From contig NZ_JHVH01000013.1 of assembly GCF_000620045.1 (NCBI RefSeq), positions 1-64,000 of the forward strand: 64,000 nt of DNA, in the 5' to 3' direction. Below the pieces are notes generated by a model. It saw only the letters and a program-made list of their open reading frames with translations, did no database searches and was not told the DNA's origin. The translations under genes and the position numbers were made by a program. How positions within the stretch are numbered: the first letter of the stretch is position 1; each line of letters opens with the position of its first letter. The DNA is from Halomonas halodenitrificans DSM 735. GTDB taxonomy: Bacteria > Pseudomonadota > Gammaproteobacteria > Pseudomonadales > Halomonadaceae. Shown here one piece after another: positions 11,587-20,313 of this stretch.

Positions 11587-12879
11587 TCATCCCTGGGTGC
11601 TGGTGCAGTTGTCGTAGAACGTAACGATAGCGGGCCAGTCGCTGAACATGCCGATGATGCCGACGTCTCGAGCGAGCACATCGAGGCTGAGCAGCTTGTC
11701 GCCATCGCTGTCGATCACGTCATCCGTCGTGCGGTGGTACCACTCGCCGTCGTTGGACAGCGGGCCGGAGCGCTCGAAACTCCAGGCGATAAGGTCGAGG
11801 CCGGCTGCCTTGGCGCGTTCGGCATAAACGGAGGGAACGATGCGGCTCTGGTCGTCACCGGCCTCCGAGTTGGAAGCCAGCAGCATCCACAGTGGTGGGG
11901 CGAGGATGGGCACGTTCATCTCGGCCAGCTCCTCCATGTTCGGTGACCAGCTGGCGGGGTCGCTGTGATCAAAGTCGTCGAGGCCGTAGCGATCGTCGAG
12001 ATAGACCGCCTGACGGCCGAATGTCGGCTCATTCTCGATCCAGTAGCGGACGTCGTCGAGATTGAATGATTGCGCCCAGACGTCGCTTGCCGGCACATCG
12101 GCCGCCTTGTACTCGTCGATCATCTTCTGGGCGTAATCCACCTGGCTCATGCCGTCGAAGGGCATTTCGACGCTCGGCGCCTTGAGCTCCGGCGTCATCT
12201 TCACGCCCAGGGCCTTGAACAGCTCGATGCTTTCGGTATGGGTCATCAGGGTGCCACGCGAGCTGTAGCGGTCCGTGCGCCAGGCGGGGGTGGCGGAAAG
12301 GTAGGCTTCGACGCTGCTGGCCTCGGTGTTGGCACCCTCCATCTTGCCCTGGAGCGTGCGGTACTCCGCCAGACTGATGTCGCTGGTGCAGCATTGAATG
12401 TCCGCGGCATTGGTCAGCTCACCCGCCTCATTGAAGGATGGCGGAACGCTGCACTTCTGCGCCAGGTCGGTCGCCACGATGTTGGTAGTGGAGTGGAGGT
12501 CACACTGGGAGTGACGGCAGACGAGCTCTTGGTCCGCGGTGAAGGTGACATCGCACTCGAGGATGCCGGCACCCATCTGGGCACCGGCCAGATAGGCTTC
12601 GCGAGTGTGTTCGGGGAACTGCATGGGCGCACCGCGGTGAGCGATGCTGAAGTCACTGCGCTGCCAGTCGCTGGTGCTCGCGGCACAATGCATAAGCTCG
12701 GTCTTCAGCTCGCGTGAACGCCGGGTCTCCTCGTCCATGTCCTGGACCAGGAAGAGTGGGCGAGGGCCCAGGGTGATATGGCGGGCAGCGGAGACGACAT
12801 CCTGTGCGGCGACGGTGGCGGGAACGAGCAGCAGCATCGCCAGGCCGATGAGGAAGGGCATAGAGGAAGGTTTCTGCAT
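11587..12879 (-). CDS. Periplasmic glycerophosphodiester phosphodiesterase family protein
   Basis: GDPD enzymes cleave glycerophosphodiesters into glycerol-3-phosphate and an alcohol. The 430-residue protein has a signal peptide (hydrophobic 8-24, cleavage near VAAQ). The catalytic pattern is HRG at 81-83, E90 and ECD at 108-110, followed by H123. It is longer than typical bacterial GlpQ, with an inserted Cys-rich stretch near 120-170, and resembles the larger GDPD class. The start MQKPSS follows a GAGG site; an in-frame ATG 14 codons earlier is possible. Confidence 0.85.
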
Positions 12880-13190
12880 GGTGGCCTCGCTATTCTTCTT
12901 GAAGGAAAGGCGGCGTCGCATCGGCCCGGCGCACTCGGTTGGTTGGCGGGGGCGGCGTATTGGACCGACATGACTTCCTGCAGCGTAGAAGGTTTGACGC
13001 GACCGGACGATCCTGTGATGCCTTCGGCCATCCGGTCGGTCCGAATGGCCGGCGTCGTTATCGACGTACTCCCAGTTGGATGACGGGGTGGTTCGACTGA
13101 CACTCCCCGGCCGCCGCGATTATTGGTACCAGTTGCACCGTGGCGTTGCACCGCTGGGTAATGAGCAGAATCCTTGAGAGGCGGCGGCTC
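12880..13190. other. Intergenic region upstream of the phosphodiesterase gene
   Basis: About 310 bases without a credible gene. It must hold the promoter of the phosphodiesterase gene. A weak inverted repeat GGCCAT/ATGGCC surrounds 13030-13055. I looked for a Pho box and did not find correctly spaced repeats. Confidence 0.5.
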
Positions 13191-13316
13191 TCAACACAGC
13201 CGGCTGCCCAGCAGCAGCAGGGCACCGTCCAGCTGGTGCCAGCCCCACCAAACCAGGGCCAGGGTAGCGGCGGTAATGACGGCAGCGGCGATGCGTAGCG
13301 TCAGGCGACGACTCAT
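13191..13316 (-). CDS. 41-residue single-pass membrane protein coupled to the MFS gene
   Basis: The ATG at 13314-13316 overlaps the MFS stop by four bases (ATGA), so translation should be coupled. The product starts MSRRLTLRIAAAVITAATLA, with three early arginines before one hydrophobic segment (about 9-26), which predicts a membrane protein with its N-terminus inside. The tail is short and ends in LGSRLC. No family is recognised. It may be a partner of the transporter. Confidence 0.55.
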   Translation of the reverse strand: MSRRLTLRIAAAVITAATLALVWWGWHQLDGALLLLGSRLC

Positions 13317-14527
13317 GCTTCAACCTCCGGGCGCGGTTCGCGCTGCATCGGTGCCTCGCTGATCCACCAGTGCAGGGCGGCGGCCATGACGCCGAGCAGG
13401 ATGGCCAGCTTCCAGACCACCTCGTAGTCGCCCTGAAGGTCGTAGAGAAAGCCTCCCAGCCAGACGCCCATGAAGGAGCCGAGCTGGTGAAAGAGGAAGA
13501 CGATCCCGCCGAGCATCGAGAGGTGCCGAACGCCGAATACCGAGGCGACGATACCGTTGGTCAAGGGCACTGTGGAGAGCCACAACAGGCCCATGGCGAT
13601 ACCGAACAGGTAGGTGGTGGTGGGACTCAGGGGCGCTACCAGGAAGAGGGTGATGATGGCCGCTCGGGCCAGGTAGATCCCGCTGAGCAGATGCGGCTTG
13701 CAGAACCGTCCGCCCAGCCAGCCGGTAAGGTAGGTGCCGAAGATATTGAACAGGCCGATCAGCGCCAGCACGGTGCTGCCCACCTGGACGGCGATACCGT
13801 TGTCGTAGAGATAGCCGGGCAGATGCACCCCGATGAACACGACCTGGAACCCACACACGAAGAAGCCCAAGCAGAGCAGCCAGAAGCCGCGATGATTGGC
13901 GGCTTCGTCGAGTGCCTCGCGCAGCGGCAGGTCGTCTGCAGCGGCGGGGGCGGGGCGGTCACGCAGCAGGGCACCCAGCGGTAGCAGCAGGACACCGATG
14001 GCGGCCATGACAAGCAGCGCCGCCGACCAGCCCAGCCATTCGAGAAGCCCCAGCGTTCCCGGCAGCATGGCGAACTGACCGAAGGAGCCCGCGGCACTGA
14101 CGATGCCCATGGCCATGCTGCGCTTCTCCGGTGCCACGGCGCGTCCCACCGCGCCCAGCACCACCGAGAAGGTGGTGCCCGAGAGCCCGAGCCCGATCAG
14201 CACGCCGGCCGAGAGGGTCATGCCCCATGCGGAGTCGGAGAGCCCCATGAAGAGCAGCCCCAGGGCGTAGAGGGCACCGCCGGCCACGACCACTCGTGCG
14301 GCACCATAGCGGTCGGCCAGGGCACCGGCCAGGGGTTGCGAGAGGCCCCACAGCAGGTTCTGGATGGCCAGGGCGAAGGCGAAGACGCCACGGCCCCAGC
14401 CCAGCTCCGCGCTCATCGGTTCGAGAAACAGCCCGAAGCCGTGTCGCAGGCCCATGGCCAGGGTCACCACCAGGCTGCCGAGCACGAGGATCATCAGGGA
14501 GTGGCGGCGTAGAGAGTCCATCGGCAT
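13313..14527 (-). CDS. MFS transporter
   Basis: The 404-residue protein shows about twelve hydrophobic segments in two halves, with GALADRYGAARV as the conserved loop between segments 2 and 3. LRHGFGLFLEPMSAELGW near residue 27 and the overall pattern resemble the oxalate/monocarboxylate branch of MFS carriers. Substrate is unknown. The small membrane protein at 13191-13316 follows in a four-base overlap. Confidence 0.85.
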   Translation of the reverse strand: MPMDSLRRHSLMILVLGSLVVTLAMGLRHGFGLFLEPMSAELGWGRGVFAFALAIQNLLWGLSQPLAGALADRYGAARVVVAGGALYALGLLFMGLSDSAWGMTLSAGVLIGLGLSGTTFSVVLGAVGRAVAPEKRSMAMGIVSAAGSFGQFAMLPGTLGLLEWLGWSAALLVMAAIGVLLLPLGALLRDRPAPAAADDLPLREALDEAANHRGFWLLCLGFFVCGFQVVFIGVHLPGYLYDNGIAVQVGSTVLALIGLFNIFGTYLTGWLGGRFCKPHLLSGIYLARAAIITLFLVAPLSPTTTYLFGIAMGLLWLSTVPLTNGIVASVFGVRHLSMLGGIVFLFHQLGSFMGVWLGGFLYDLQGDYEVVWKLAILLGVMAAALHWWISEAPMQREPRPEVEA

Positions 14528-15038: not shown

Positions 15039-16106
15039 CTAACGTCCGGGCTCGACGATGATCTTGACCTGCGACTTGTCGCCGAGCAGTGCTTCGAAGC
15101 CCTGTTCGACCACATCCTCCAAAGCGATGCGTGCCGTCACCAGGTTCTCGGCGCGGAAGTAGCCCTGTTCCATCAGCGCCATCACCGCGGGGTAGATATG
15201 ACGGTAGGCAATGATGCCCTTCAGCGTGCGCTCCTTGATCACTAAGTCGTTGGGCTGGAAGTTGGCTTCGCTTTCCCAGATGCTGACGATGACGGTCTCT
15301 CCGCCCTCGTGGGTGGCGTTGATAGCTTGGCTCAGCACGGCGGGAATGCCGGTCACTTCGAAGGCGAAGTCGGCGCCGCCTTGAGTCAGCTCGTGAATGC
15401 GGCCCACCACGTCGTCGAAGTCTGGAAACAAGGTCTTGGCGCCAAGTTCCTCGGCCTTGTGCCGACGCGCCGTCGAGGGTTCTACCGCCACGATCGTCGA
15501 GGCGCCGGCGGCCTTGAGCGCTTCGATCACTACCAGCCCGATCGGGCCTGCGCCGAACACCACAGCGCTGTCCCCCGCCTTGAATGAGCTCTGGCGCACG
15601 GCATGCAGGCCCACCGCTGCGGGCTCTACCAGTGCGCCCTGCTCAAAGGATAGGCTGTCGGGCAGCGGGTGGACCATATGCTCGCCGACCACGGTGTATT
15701 CGGAGAATCCGCCGCCGCCGCCCGAAAGACCATGGAAGCCCAGCAGCGGCGTCAGGTTATAACGCTCCATCAGATAACGGCCATCTTGGTGAGGCGACAG
15801 AATCGGCTCGATGGCGACCCGGTCGCCAGGCTTAATTCGAGTCACATGCTCGCCAACTTCGACCACCTTGCCGGCGAACTCATGGCCCATGATGATGGGC
15901 GCGCGCTGTCCGCTGATGGGGTGCGGCGTGTCGACCGGGATGAAAATTGGGCCGGCGCTGTATTCGTGCAGGTCGCTACCGCAGATGCCGCAGGCGGCGA
16001 CCTTCACCTTGACCTGGTGAGGGTCTTCCAGATGTGGCACCTCGACCGATTCGACGCGCAGATCCCTAGCCTGGTACCAGACCACGGCTTTCATGGTGTG
16101 GGACAT
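15039..16106 (-). CDS. Zinc-dependent alcohol dehydrogenase, 2,3-butanediol dehydrogenase type
   Basis: This medium-chain dehydrogenase (355 residues) should oxidise a secondary alcohol or diol with NAD. Catalytic zinc ligands are C39, H75 (in GHE) and E161. The NAD loop is GAGPIG (185-190) with a following E209, which suits NAD over NADP. The lobe that usually holds four structural-zinc cysteines (about 95-135) has none. The start MSHTMKA at 16106 follows a GGAAAC site. It lies 120 bases after the monooxygenase gene, probably in the same transcript. Confidence 0.85.
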   Translation of the reverse strand: MSHTMKAVVWYQARDLRVESVEVPHLEDPHQVKVKVAACGICGSDLHEYSAGPIFIPVDTPHPISGQRAPIIMGHEFAGKVVEVGEHVTRIKPGDRVAIEPILSPHQDGRYLMERYNLTPLLGFHGLSGGGGGFSEYTVVGEHMVHPLPDSLSFEQGALVEPAAVGLHAVRQSSFKAGDSAVVFGAGPIGLVVIEALKAAGASTIVAVEPSTARRHKAEELGAKTLFPDFDDVVGRIHELTQGGADFAFEVTGIPAVLSQAINATHEGGETVIVSIWESEANFQPNDLVIKERTLKGIIAYRHIYPAVMALMEQGYFRAENLVTARIALEDVVEQGFEALLGDKSQVKIIVEPGR

Positions 16107-16226
16107 GTTGTTTCCTTGATTCGTGGACGAACGTATTCGTTGATGGACGTGTCGTGCCCTTATCGATGCGGCGCATTCGTTTGGCGTCATTTCTCTTATT
16201 TGGCATCACCTCTCGCTGTCATCGGT

Positions 16227-18023
16227 TCACGACAGGTGGTGAGCTTCCTGCAGGCCATAGACTGGAGTGGATATCCCCTCCATGCGCGCCTTGAGCTGCA
16301 GCGCCAGGTAACGCGAATAGTGGCGTGACTGATGCAGGTTGCCGCCGTGAAACCACAGTGCCTCCTGCTGGGTAGGCTTCCACATGTTACGCAGTTCGCC
16401 TTCCCAGGGTCCTGGGTCCTTGGTGGTATCGGAGCCCAGCCCCCAGCACTTGCCCACCTTGTCGGCCACCTCCTGGGAAATCAGCCGCGCGGCCCAGCCA
16501 TTCATTGACCCGTAACCGGTGGCATAAACGATCAGATCCGCAGCGAGTTCCGAACCGTCGCTAAGGCTCACCGAACGCGGGTTGATTCGCTCGATGCCGA
16601 CGCCGCTGCGTAGCTTGATGTCACCGTTGGCCACCAGGTCGCAGGCACCAACGTCGATATAGTAGCCAGATCCACGGCGCAGATACTTGAGGAATAGGCC
16701 GGAATCGTCGTCGCCGAAGTCGAGCAGGAATCCTGCTTCCTCGAGTCGGCAATAGAAGTCGGCATCCCGTCGGCGTACTGCATCGAAAGCGACCCGTTGG
16801 AAGTCGGGCAGTACTCGGTAGGGAATCGAGGCGAACAGCAGGTCGGCGGTATCGTGATCGATGCCGCGCCTTACTGCTTCTTCCGAGTAGAGTGGTCCTA
16901 GCACCTCTTCCATAAGCGAGTCTGACTTGACCACATGGGTCGATGAGCGCTGCAGCATGGTGACGTCGGCGTCGTGCTCCCATAGCGCGGCACAGATATC
17001 GTGCGCGGAGTTGTTGGCACCCACGACGACGACCTTCTTGCCGCGATAGCGGTCGGGGCCGGGATGTTGGCTGGAGTGCTGCTGCTCGCCTTCGAATGTC
17101 TCGGCACCTGGAAACTGCGGTATGTTGGGGAGACCCGACATCCCGGTGGCCAGGATCAGCTGCTGAGGCCTCAGCGTGATGCGTTCACTGTTACGGTTCA
17201 CCTCGACCTGCCAGCGACCGCTGGCTTCGTCGTAGTGGGCGCCTGCACACTCCGTCGAACTCCAGTAGTTGAGCTCCATTACCTTCGTGTACATCTCCAG
17301 CCAGTCGCCGATCTTGTCCTTAGGAGCGAAGACCGGCCAGTTCTCGGGGAAGGGGATATAAGGCAGGTGGTCATACCAGACCGGATCGTGGAGGCACAAC
17401 GACTTGTAGCGGCTGCGCCAGGAGTCGCCGGGTCGGGGGTTGCGCTCGATGATCAGGGTCGGCACGCCTAGCTGCTTGAGCCGCGCGCCAAGCGCGATGC
17501 CACCCTGACCACCACCGATGATCACACAGTAGGGCTGGCGGCTATAGCCAAGCTCCTGTTCTTCACGCAGTCGGGCCTCCTGCCACGTTTCGCGCTGCTT
17601 GTTGGCGCCATGCTCGGCCCCCTTGGGGCGGTGGATGCCGCGCGGCTCGGGGTGATCCTTGAGCTCTTGCATGGTGGTCAGCAGGGTCCAGCATCTACCG
17701 TTTCTCAGGCGCAGATAGCCCTTGCAATGTGCAACAGCTGTCTCGAAGGTGATACTGCCTTCGATCACGCCGTCGGCCTCGCTGACGTCGCCGTCGAGTC
17801 GCCAGAGGTCTGGTCGAGTCGTGTCCAGGGTGGCATCGAGCATGGACTGGATGGCGTCTTTTCCCTCGAGTGTCTTGAGATTCCAGGTAAAGGCGACCAA
17901 GTCGCGCCAAAAGCACTCATCGTCGAACAGGGAAAGGATCTGTTGAATATCGTCCTGCTTAAGAGCGTTGCCGAAATCGTTCAGCCACTGCTGCAGGGTC
18001 TGTGCGGGGGTTGCTGTTGTCAT
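16227..18023 (-). CDS. Flavin-containing monooxygenase with N-terminal NTF2-like domain
   Basis: The 598-residue protein has a SnoaL/NTF2-like region (about 5-120) and then a two-dinucleotide flavoprotein. The FAD loop is GGGQGG (170-175) and the NADPH loop is GANNSAHD (335-342). Between them FEGEQQHSSQH (310-320) fits the FxGxxxH fingerprint of class B monooxygenases, with H in place of the final Tyr, Phe or Trp. Substrate is unknown. The start at 18023 is set by the sigma-54 promoter at 18064-18081, since the longer frame would begin upstream of the transcript. Confidence 0.87.
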   Translation of the reverse strand: MTTATPAQTLQQWLNDFGNALKQDDIQQILSLFDDECFWRDLVAFTWNLKTLEGKDAIQSMLDATLDTTRPDLWRLDGDVSEADGVIEGSITFETAVAHCKGYLRLRNGRCWTLLTTMQELKDHPEPRGIHRPKGAEHGANKQRETWQEARLREEQELGYSRQPYCVIIGGGQGGIALGARLKQLGVPTLIIERNPRPGDSWRSRYKSLCLHDPVWYDHLPYIPFPENWPVFAPKDKIGDWLEMYTKVMELNYWSSTECAGAHYDEASGRWQVEVNRNSERITLRPQQLILATGMSGLPNIPQFPGAETFEGEQQHSSQHPGPDRYRGKKVVVVGANNSAHDICAALWEHDADVTMLQRSSTHVVKSDSLMEEVLGPLYSEEAVRRGIDHDTADLLFASIPYRVLPDFQRVAFDAVRRRDADFYCRLEEAGFLLDFGDDDSGLFLKYLRRGSGYYIDVGACDLVANGDIKLRSGVGIERINPRSVSLSDGSELAADLIVYATGYGSMNGWAARLISQEVADKVGKCWGLGSDTTKDPGPWEGELRNMWKPTQQEALWFHGGNLHQSRHYSRYLALQLKARMEGISTPVYGLQEAHHLS

Positions 18024-18063
18024 CGTTGTTCTCCGCTCGGGGTTAGATGTTGCCCTCTGCACT

Positions 18064-18081
18064 ATGCAGCATGCGTGCCAG
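18064..18081 (-). promoter_or_regulatory. Sigma-54 promoter for the monooxygenase gene
   Basis: On the minus strand the sequence is CTGGCACGCATGCTGCAT, which fits TGGCACG-N4-TTGCAT. GG (18079-18078) and GC (18067-18066) are ten bases apart, the strict spacing. The predicted transcript starts near 18054, about 30 bases before the ATG at 18023. Confidence 0.85.
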
Positions 18082-18190: not shown

Positions 18191-18233
18191 GTGACAGCTG
18201 TTACGGCGCAGGTGTAGCGCGGTGTTACACCTG
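18191..18233. promoter_or_regulatory. Tandem palindromes, likely activator sites for the AcoR-like protein
   Basis: GTGACAG/CTGTTAC (18191-18204) is a near palindrome. CAGGTGTA (18209-18216) and TACACCTG (18226-18233) are perfect inverted arms around nine bases. They lie about 135-180 bases upstream of the predicted sigma-54 start, a normal distance for enhancer sites, and next to the activator gene. Confidence 0.6.
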
Positions 18234-18354
18234 TAGCGCCGCGGGTCAGGTGGTCGCTTGGGGCGATTGACACCGACCCTGGTTGGCATAGGCTGATGAT
18301 GGAGCAACATCCGCAGGGCGGGTGCGGCGATGTCGGCAGGCCGTGGAGGCAGCG

Positions 18355-20313
18355 ATGAGGCTGAGAACCGACCAGCGTACGCATATCGAAACGCTGATGA
18401 GGCTGGGGGAGTGGCGCGGTAGCGAGGTGTCACCGTGTCGCGAGGTGATTCGTCGTTCCTGGGAACGCTGCGTAGGAGAGTATCGGCTCGATCCTGCGCG
18501 GCCACGGCCGGTGCGCGTGCTGAGCCAGCAGGCGCTTCGTGAGCATCAGGATCCCGTGGATGAGCTGCTGCACATGGCGCGGGCCGGCCTTGATCAGCTC
18601 TTCACCCATGCTGCACCGCTGGGCTATGTGCTGCTGCTGACCGACCGCCAGGGGGTCACCGTGGACTTCCGCGGTGACCCCGGCAATGACCTGTCGCTTC
18701 GTCGTGCCGGGCTCTATCTCGGTGCCGACTGGGACGAGCGATTTGCCGGCACCTGCGCCGTTGGCACTTGTCTGCATGAGGGGCAGGCGATTACCTGCCA
18801 TCAAAACGAACATTTCGATGCTACACATATCGCCCTGACCTGTTCGGCCGCTCCCATCAGCGACCCCCAGGGGCGCGTCATGGCGGTGCTCGATATCTCG
18901 GCTCTGCAATCGCCTCGCTCCTTGGAGAGCCAGAACTTCGGTCTTTCGTTGGTCAGCCTGCATGCGCGCATGATTGAAGATGCCTACTTCCTGCACCGCT
19001 ATCGCGACTGCCTGGTACTGCGCTATGACTCGGCGCGCCCGTTTGTGCATCTCAACGGCCGTGGACTGATCGCCATGGAAGAGGATGGCAGTATCATCGC
19101 CGCCAATGGTAACGGGCGAGAGCTGATCGCGGCGCATTTGCGTCGCTGGCCCGCCTGGTCATCCACGTCCAGGATCAAGGCCACTCAGTTGCTTGACGCC
19201 GAGCTGGGCGATCTGCTGACCCTGTCGCGCCGAGGTGACGACCAGATTTATGCCTTCCGCATCCGAGCCAGCGATACCATCTGTTTCGCCACGCTGATCG
19301 AGCCGCCGCGGCGGCGCCTCGCCGAACAACATGTGGCGGCGTCGGCCCCGGTGCCGGCTCTGGATCAGCTGGGAGGCGATGATCCTGCCATGCGCCGACT
19401 GCTCAAACTGAGCCGACGGTTGCGCAACGAGACCGTCGGCGTACTGATTACCGGCGAGACCGGAACCGGCAAGGAGGTGCTGGCGAGGGCCCTGCATGAC
19501 AGCGGTACGCGGGGCGACGGCCCCTTCGTAGCCGTCAACTGCGCGGCCATTCCCGAATCGCTGATCGAGAGTGAGCTGTTTGGCTACCTGCCTGGCGCCT
19601 TCACTGGTGGGCGCCGTCAGGGAATGCGTGGGCTGATCCAGCAGGCCAGCAGTGGCACCTTGTTCCTGGATGAGATAGGCGATATGCCGCTTTCGCTGCA
19701 GACCCGTCTGCTGCGAGTGCTGGCGGAACGCGAAGTGATGCCGCTGGGGGCAGACAAATCGGTAGCGGTGGATATTCGCGTCATTACCGCGACTTATCAT
19801 GACATGGCACAGTTAATCGCCGAGGGCCGCTTCCGGGAGGATCTGTACTATCGGCTCAACGGTGCGCCGCTGCGACTGCCGGCCCTGCGTGACAGGGCCG
19901 ACCGCCATTTCGTGATTCGAAGCGTCTATCAGGCGCTACTCGAGGAGCGCGGTGGCGCGGTGCATCTACGCGCCGACGCCATGAGTGCGCTGCTTGCCTA
20001 TCCCTGGCCGGGCAATATTCGCCAGCTGCGCAATGCCCTGGACTTTGCGCTGGCCACGATAGAAGGGGAAGAGATCACCGTGCACGACCTACCCGAGGAA
20101 TGTCAGGGCGTGCTAGGCACGTCGCCGCGGCTGTACGACAGCGTGCACGCCGGCGCCGATGCGCCTGTCGATGATTCGACAGAGCTTCAGGAGCTACTGC
20201 AGCGCCTGAGCTGGAACATCAGCCAGGCGGCGCGTGAGCTTGGCGTGTCGCGACCGACGGTCTATCGTCGCATGCGGCGCCAGGGGCTGGTGCCTCCTAA
20301 TCGGCGCGGCTAG
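18355..20313 (+). CDS. Sigma-54-dependent transcriptional activator, AcoR type
   Basis: The 652-residue protein has an N-terminal GAF-like sensor (about 60-250), an AAA+ domain with GETGTGKE and LFLDEIGDMP, and a Fis-type C-terminal HTH (NISQAARELGVSRPTVYRR). This is the acetoin activator (AcoR) layout. The usual GAFTGA loop that touches sigma-54 reads GAFTGG here. GGAGG six bases upstream supports the ATG at 18355 over the one at 18322. It is divergent from the monooxygenase gene and probably activates it. The inducer is unknown. Confidence 0.88.
   Translation: MRLRTDQRTHIETLMRLGEWRGSEVSPCREVIRRSWERCVGEYRLDPARPRPVRVLSQQALREHQDPVDELLHMARAGLDQLFTHAAPLGYVLLLTDRQGVTVDFRGDPGNDLSLRRAGLYLGADWDERFAGTCAVGTCLHEGQAITCHQNEHFDATHIALTCSAAPISDPQGRVMAVLDISALQSPRSLESQNFGLSLVSLHARMIEDAYFLHRYRDCLVLRYDSARPFVHLNGRGLIAMEEDGSIIAANGNGRELIAAHLRRWPAWSSTSRIKATQLLDAELGDLLTLSRRGDDQIYAFRIRASDTICFATLIEPPRRRLAEQHVAASAPVPALDQLGGDDPAMRRLLKLSRRLRNETVGVLITGETGTGKEVLARALHDSGTRGDGPFVAVNCAAIPESLIESELFGYLPGAFTGGRRQGMRGLIQQASSGTLFLDEIGDMPLSLQTRLLRVLAEREVMPLGADKSVAVDIRVITATYHDMAQLIAEGRFREDLYYRLNGAPLRLPALRDRADRHFVIRSVYQALLEERGGAVHLRADAMSALLAYPWPGNIRQLRNALDFALATIEGEEITVHDLPEECQGVLGTSPRLYDSVHAGADAPVDDSTELQELLQRLSWNISQAARELGVSRPTVYRRMRRQGLVPPNRRG

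Follow-up and report, generated by a model that had tools for sequence, protein, structure and literature searches.

The acoXABC-AcoR operon for acetoin and 2,3-butanediol is known from Pseudomonas putida KT2440 and P. aeruginosa PAO1 (PMC8427195). The type IIb flavin monooxygenases (FMOs), which include JsFMO, FMO-E, FMO-F and FMO-G of Rhodococcus jostii and PsFMO A-C, have been studied as biocatalysts or in phylogeny (PMC10028610, PMC7570161), and neither "operon" nor "physiological" occurs in the main text of the JsFMO paper (PMC10028610). The subject here is a module of the salt-loving bacterium Halomonas halodenitrificans DSM 735 (NCBI RefSeq assembly GCF_000620045.1), found in positions 1 to 64,000 of contig NZ_JHVH01000013.1 (the window, 64,000 nucleotides in all), which consists of a sigma-54 promoter, an FMO gene, a gene for a Zn-dependent dehydrogenase of the (R,R)-2,3-butanediol dehydrogenase (BDH) type and a divergent gene for an AcoR-like activator. 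The module is most suitably classed as a variant of the AcoR system for acetoin and 2,3-butanediol in which an FMO fills the cleaving position, and we cautiously favour, at a little above even confidence, the reading that it is an inducible 2,3-butanediol/acetoin operon in which a type IIb FMO replaces the acetoin dehydrogenase complex.

With the acoXABC-AcoR system the module has in common an AcoR-type activator, an (R,R)-butanediol dehydrogenase and, in some loci, a short-chain dehydrogenase/reductase (SDR); sigma-54 boxes are present in most of the aco and aco-like loci examined, and the same palindrome mostly in the gammaproteobacterial (aco-like) and betaproteobacterial ones. It differs in that the window has no TPP/lipoate acetoin dehydrogenase and an O2-dependent FMO instead, and in its expected products, acetate and acetaldehyde, as against the acetyl-CoA and acetaldehyde of the aco system. 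With the type IIb FMOs it shares both domains, including the NTF2-like front, the H/D/Y/R residues, and the FxGxxxHxxxH and GxNxxA motifs (PMC10028610, PMC7570161). Sequence comparison establishes the enzyme families, the promoter and the operator, as well as the partners that the module has in common with aco and aco-like operons.

The monooxygenase, the dehydrogenase and the activator

On the minus strand the order of elements is the sigma-54 promoter (18065-18080), the FMO (16227-18023, 598 aa), a gap of 120 bp and the dehydrogenase (15039-16106, 355 aa), and the activator lies divergently on the plus strand at about 18355-20313. An earlier reading made from the letters of this DNA (the sequence-only reading) had described this promoter, a flavin monooxygenase followed by a secondary-alcohol dehydrogenase and the divergent AcoR-like activator, and all of it was confirmed. 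Both enzymes begin with ATG; for the FMO this codon was preferred to the longer GTG start at 18062 because the latter would adjoin the -12 element, 5' of the expected transcript start, and the activator has an alternative GTG start at 18322. Genes in related loci were called with a codon-usage caller made for this analysis.

The FMO aligns to PDB entry 8ACS (E 3.8e-288) over residues 30-611 of the 611-aa frame. This is the structure of JsFMO, which belongs to the type II FMOs, has a SnoaL/NTF2-like N-terminus and carries out Baeyer-Villiger oxidation and sulfoxidation (PMC10028610). H216, D217, Y458 and R571 of JsFMO and its GxNxxA motif are all kept in the window enzyme, as read by eye from the alignment (the numbers of chain and paper differ by 16). 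The NTF2-like front domain proposed earlier was recovered as an NTF2/SnoaL-like extension of about 160 residues, the mark of type IIb, through which the protein aligns to 8ACS, but it has no NTF2 family match in Pfam at E<=0.001. The type IIb motif FxGxxxHxxxH (PMC7570161) reads FHGGNLHQSRH here; among 116 FMO rows, not de-duplicated by genome, it is present in 116, as is the HD motif, and the Y motif in 111. These sequence features place the enzyme among the type II (IIb) FMOs, near the crystallised JsFMO, and Baeyer-Villiger activity is predicted for it. JsFMO itself converts two linear ketones to acetate products only and uses NADPH or NADH (PMC10028610, section 2.4).

The nearest solved chain to the dehydrogenase is the (R,R)-butanediol dehydrogenase 6ie0 (E 7.9e-133, the next best being 1.4e-50), and its PF08240 and PF00107 domains are those of the zinc medium-chain dehydrogenase/reductase (MDR) fold; none of the NCBIfam models scored above its own cut-off. 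By family it is classed with the (R,R)-2,3-butanediol dehydrogenases, and oxidation of (2R,3R)- and meso-2,3-butanediol is predicted. In a 41-row tree (this and the activator tree are quick trees with SH-aLRT support only) the window enzyme groups, with support of 97, with those of two same-genus genomes in which the dehydrogenase sits between the E1 alpha and E1 beta genes, and the six aco-linked rows need four label changes, three of them forced. When the search started from the dehydrogenase alone, it was found in 7 of 61 same-genus genomes at E<=1e-100: three, including the window, in FMO modules, three near aco-like complexes and one on a short contig near neither. Of the three near aco-like complexes, one (L229) lies 2-3 kb away on the other strand and has an internal stop. 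Enzymes of the butanediol-dehydrogenase type from two lineages recur beside the FMO.

The activator has a sensor region, a sigma-54 AAA+ domain and a Fis helix-turn-helix (HTH), with matches to PF00158, PF25601 and PF02954 and no GAF match at E<=0.001. Its sigma-54 contact loop reads GAFTGG and not GAFTGA, as in several other Halomonas activators and in 29 of 90 related activators overall. In a 46-row tree FMO-linked and aco-linked activators interleave, the seven aco-linked rows needing five label changes, all forced by starred branches; the gammaproteobacterial branch that holds the window's activator includes a Halomonadaceae aco-like one, and the canonical aco activators fall in other branches.

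A different regulator precedes the FMO in nine Burkholderiales loci (L041, L046, L049, L050, L054, L056, L068, L075 and L077, the last from Janthinobacterium). It is 380-410 aa long, and its alignment with the AcoR-like activator covers the sensor part of the latter; in the single example scanned (L050) there are matches to GAF and Fis-HTH and none to a sigma-54 AAA+ domain, and none of the nine loci has a sigma-54 box of at least 9 upstream of the FMO. The short regulator has the appearance of a sensor that has escaped sigma-54 control.

The sigma-54 promoter and a candidate palindromic operator

The promoter box TGGCACGCATGCTGCA (-24/-12, 18065-18080, minus strand) matches 11 of the 12 fixed consensus positions, and the genome has one match to rpoN. 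Conservation was followed in 37 gammaproteobacterial loci, comprising the window and 36 of the best 80 loci among the matches listed in an FMO scan; these were chosen for a divergent AcoR-like activator and span Halomonadaceae, Marinobacter, Aquisalimonas, Nitrincola and Oceanobacter. In this activator-selected set a box 5' of the FMO scores at least 9 of 12 in 37/37 loci, at least 10 in 33/37 and at least 11 in 18/37, against chance levels of 18.6%, 4.8% and 1.6%, respectively, in 4000 stretches of 495 bp drawn at random from these loci. The activator of one member (L018) is cut by the end of its contig. In another (L021, Halomonas olivaria TYRC17) the activator and the dehydrogenase are fragmented and the FMO frame and promoter box are intact, which looks like a decaying copy or sequencing errors.

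Two copies of the palindrome GTNACANNTGTNAC 5' of the promoter add to what had been described before. The first (18191-18204) is a 10/10 match 110 bp upstream of the promoter box and the second (18224-18237) a 9/10 match 143 bp upstream of it; both are putative activator sites. A box with the palindrome 30-350 bp upstream is present at the FMO promoter in 37/37 of the activator-selected loci, and no such pair occurred anywhere in 129 base-shuffled loci. Counted by the position rule for operon promoters (the palindrome 30-350 bp upstream of a sigma-54 box), the pair is found in 7/8 gammaproteobacterial aco-like, 4/6 betaproteobacterial FMO and 2/3 betaproteobacterial aco loci. In the third betaproteobacterial aco locus (L208) a pair lies near the start of acoX, and in the eighth gammaproteobacterial aco-like locus (L177, from the same-genus genome G127) the sole pair is upstream of a 211-aa frame, at the cassette's far end.

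This last pair (L177:3093-3756), beyond the aco-like cassette, combines a 12/12 sigma-54 box with the same palindrome; the 211-aa frame, glyoxalase/VOC-like by eye only, is a possible further regulon member. A guess that this frame and a 194-aa frame near a cassette in another genome (G111) encode OmpW proteins failed on testing.

Elsewhere the promoter arrangement varies. Where the regulator has no AAA+ domain, the box-palindrome pair was found in 1 of 11 loci scanned over their whole length (L068, away from the FMO promoter), and a gammaproteobacterial locus of Psychrobacter (L042) has neither activator nor box. Eleven alphaproteobacterial loci among the best 80 have the dehydrogenase ahead of the FMO; nine of them carry a box scoring 11-12 upstream of the first gene, and the activator is on the same strand in ten and divergent in one (L080, box score 10). 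In the remaining one of the eleven (L060), whose dehydrogenase is broken up, there is no box upstream of the FMO, where the scan looked. The earlier proposal of sigma-54 control by an AcoR-like activator is supported.

Relation to acetoin operons

Apart from the FMO, related activators and dehydrogenases mostly have aco or aco-like genes as partners, an exception being a Pantoea locus (L097) with the dehydrogenase and no aco genes. In the plasmid collection, acoXABC of two Caballeronia records and of Paracoccus denitrificans has beside it an activator with 42-46% identity to that of the window; the E2 of one Caballeronia locus (L095, the only E2 scanned) scores above the NCBIfam acetoin cut-off (487 vs 307 bits). 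The gene order in P. denitrificans is acoXABC-SDR-BDH-AcoR, and its SDR and BDH are 75% and 70% identical, respectively, to those in two Phyllobacterium FMO operons. A substitution at the same chromosomal site is seen in G127, where genes on both flanks are 90-97% identical to those of the window and a different cassette lies between them, with an activator (54%), a GMC oxidoreductase, E1 alpha, BDH (82%), E1 beta, a lipoyl protein and an E2 catalytic domain, and without an FMO. An acetaldehyde dehydrogenase of the ExaC type is found above the NCBIfam cut-off near the FMO in two loci (L062, L074), and ExaC homologues (77-92%) are near it in three others (L191, L194, L203). This comparative evidence, drawn from sequences, puts the module in a predicted acetoin/2,3-butanediol regulon.

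The Halomonadaceae aco-like operon (L177:4598-13295, L178, L180-L185) comprises an AcoR-like activator, E1 alpha, sometimes BDH, and E1 beta; in L177 there are also the GMC oxidoreductase and an E2 in two parts, a lipoyl protein of 79 aa and a catalytic domain that stands by itself. Between the activator and ExaC near the FMO lies a DUF779-family protein (L194:11689-12102, a Pfam match), and a frame of similar size has the same position in L203 (12791-13195). On the flank of the window module, an MFS transporter gene (13313-14527) was rejected as a module member, being 511 bp past the dehydrogenase and having a 95%-identical homologue that flanks the aco-like cassette in G127. A GDPD-family gene (11587-12921) stands between this transporter gene and the next flank gene, and none was called at the matching place in G127.

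The sequence-only reading had also stated that acetoin dehydrogenase genes are absent, and this extends to the whole genome. PF00676 has three matches there, namely a 408-aa E1 alpha accompanied by a beta-subunit frame, a frame of 2-oxoglutarate-dehydrogenase length and a marginal one; the E1 alpha/beta pair is, by our own reading of the sequences, probably of the branched-chain type. An acetoin E1 alpha query had no match in the genome at E<=1e-40. As no acoA-type E1 was found (E1 beta and E2 not being searched separately), an acoABC operon of the standard kind was rejected, both for the module and for the rest of the genome. The same reading had placed the module away from acetoin, with an unknown substrate, and in this it was not supported: the nearest solved dehydrogenase acts on (R,R)-butanediol, the activator, operator and dehydrogenase are common to aco and aco-like operons, and the absence of an acetoin dehydrogenase argues for acetoin and not against it.

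Among 151 Halomonadaceae genomes the FMO is present in 43, and is shared with an acoA-like E1 in 0 of 10 at 1e-60, a cut chosen after the list was seen (P 0.03); at the search cut the overlap is 1 of 13 (G033; P 0.07). This pattern of co-occurrence is weak support at best.

A proposed acetoin monooxygenase route and its competitors

In the proposed route, the AcoR-like protein would sense acetoin or a close relative and bind both palindromes, which would lead to sigma-54 transcription of the FMO and the dehydrogenase. The dehydrogenase would oxidize 2,3-butanediol to acetoin, and the FMO, with FAD, O2 and NAD(P)H, would form a peroxyflavin and insert oxygen between the carbonyl and the carbinol carbon of acetoin, giving 1-hydroxyethyl acetate, a hemiacetal ester. 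Such an ester should decompose to acetate and acetaldehyde, and no esterase is seen in the module, as would be expected if the product falls apart by itself. The acetaldehyde may then be oxidized by an aldehyde dehydrogenase, of the ExaC type in some relatives. The general idea of a dehydrogenase feeding a ketone-oxidizing monooxygenase was already part of the sequence-only reading and is supported. A similar logic, compared here by description, reportedly operates in the acetone monooxygenase (ACMO) route of Gordonia, in which a dehydrogenase makes a small methyl ketone that a Baeyer-Villiger monooxygenase opens; ACMO is said to differ in being a classical Baeyer-Villiger monooxygenase that yields a stable ester needing an esterase.

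A number of observations weigh against this route. The expectation that the gene set is conserved together held for the activator and the FMO (37/37 gammaproteobacterial loci, selected for it) and held in part for the dehydrogenase, which adjoins the FMO in just 18/37 and is therefore a frequent and not an obligate partner; among those 18 it is broken in L021 and separated by an SDR in L017, and the count is limited by L002, where the contig ends just past the FMO. The box-palindrome pair was found in 0/20 alphaproteobacterial FMO loci scanned over the whole locus, and in G127 no palindrome of at least 9/10 stands alongside the sigma-54 box of the operon. The FMO family also serves elsewhere, since 34 of the 116 rows lack such a regulator within 4 kb (L018, cut short by its contig, is counted here), and on a fast tree of 40 enzymes the FMOs with a linked regulator are intermixed with those that stand alone. 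In the Halomonadaceae aco-like operons E1 alpha makes up a long branch of its own, separate from both canonical AcoA and the pyruvate-dehydrogenase-like rows, which weakens the candidacy of these complexes as canonical acetoin dehydrogenases; the swap in G127 therefore shows exchange with an aco-like complex of putative substrate. Of four aldehyde dehydrogenases near FMOs that were scanned, two (L033, L034) belong to the methylmalonate-semialdehyde type and not to ExaC, and in some cases the ExaC unit is accompanied by a short regulator of its own.

Mutual exclusion of FMO and aco genes was likewise weakened by genomes in which they overlap: of 349 genomes of the phylum, 10 of the 25 with an acoA-like match also have an FMO match, one of these ten (G193) combines an AcoA-like E1 (56%) with an FMO of 42% identity, and Halomonas sp. 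Y3 appears to carry both systems (L001 and L229, on contigs of equal length). Nine of the ten overlapping acoA-like matches are, in our own reading, probably pyruvate-dehydrogenase-like (44-47% identity; the four that were placed on a tree lie away from AcoA). The enzymology of JsFMO adds to the doubt, as bicyclic ketones and those of the cyclobutanone type are the best substrates reported, linear ketones are converted slowly, and acetoin is not mentioned in the main text, apart from whatever its supplementary substrate tables hold (PMC10028610). Nor was acetoin found as the natural substrate of a Baeyer-Villiger enzyme in the titles and abstract beginnings of the open-access literature searched. 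A link between the Fmo5-knockout mouse and 2,3-butanediol, with the diol traced to gut microbes (PMC9393927), was not used as support.

Among the alternatives, the one that survives best keeps the regulon and changes the step: the FMO would act on diacetyl, toxic side products or volatile ketones in a detoxifying role, and acetoin would be reduced or removed otherwise. JsFMO takes several ketones and sulfides, most of them slowly (PMC10028610), which would suit such a role, as would the gammaproteobacterial FMOs, half of the set, without an adjoining dehydrogenase and the genome without an acoA-type E1; against this, the FMO occupies the place of the aco-like complex beside a related dehydrogenase and activator, which points to the main catabolic step, and we regard detoxification as unlikely, if the most serious of the competitors. 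Slightly less probable still is a route for another secondary alcohol or alpha-hydroxyketone (2-butanol/butanone or 1,2-propanediol/acetol) with the sensor tuned accordingly, which comes near the general wording of the earlier reading. The Halomonadaceae complexes that come with the same types of activator and dehydrogenase depart from the canonical acetoin dehydrogenase and contain a GMC oxidoreductase, so the common substrate could be a relative of acetoin, and JsFMO does convert linear ketones (PMC10028610); this explanation fits poorly with the alpha- and betaproteobacterial partners of related activators, which are of the acoXABC type, with the Caballeronia E2 that passes the acetoin cut-off, and with a nearest solved dehydrogenase that acts on (R,R)-butanediol. 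That an FMO of unrelated function, for example sulfoxidation, which JsFMO performs weakly (PMC10028610), gained an AcoR-type promoter as a chance neighbour is very improbable, for all the relatives without a nearby regulator, because the linkage of activator and FMO, the promoter and the operator are kept across genera and families and butanediol-dehydrogenase-type enzymes of two lineages accompany the FMO.

The reading of the module as a 2,3-butanediol/acetoin operon with an acetoin-cleaving FMO is thus the one retained. The broader claim, that an acetoin monooxygenase pathway is widespread in proteobacteria and that FMO and TPP/lipoate complex have been swapped in AcoR regulons repeatedly, even at the same chromosomal site, is put forward more tentatively, as a proposition whose chances fall just short of even. 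If true, acetoin and 2,3-butanediol would have an oxygen-dependent route in addition to that of the classical acetoin dehydrogenase, open to direct test on an enzyme with an existing crystal structure (8ACS); loci labelled merely "NAD(P)/FAD-dependent oxidoreductase" could be annotated more sharply, and at least part of the type IIb FMOs, enzymes mostly studied in vitro, would gain a natural substrate.

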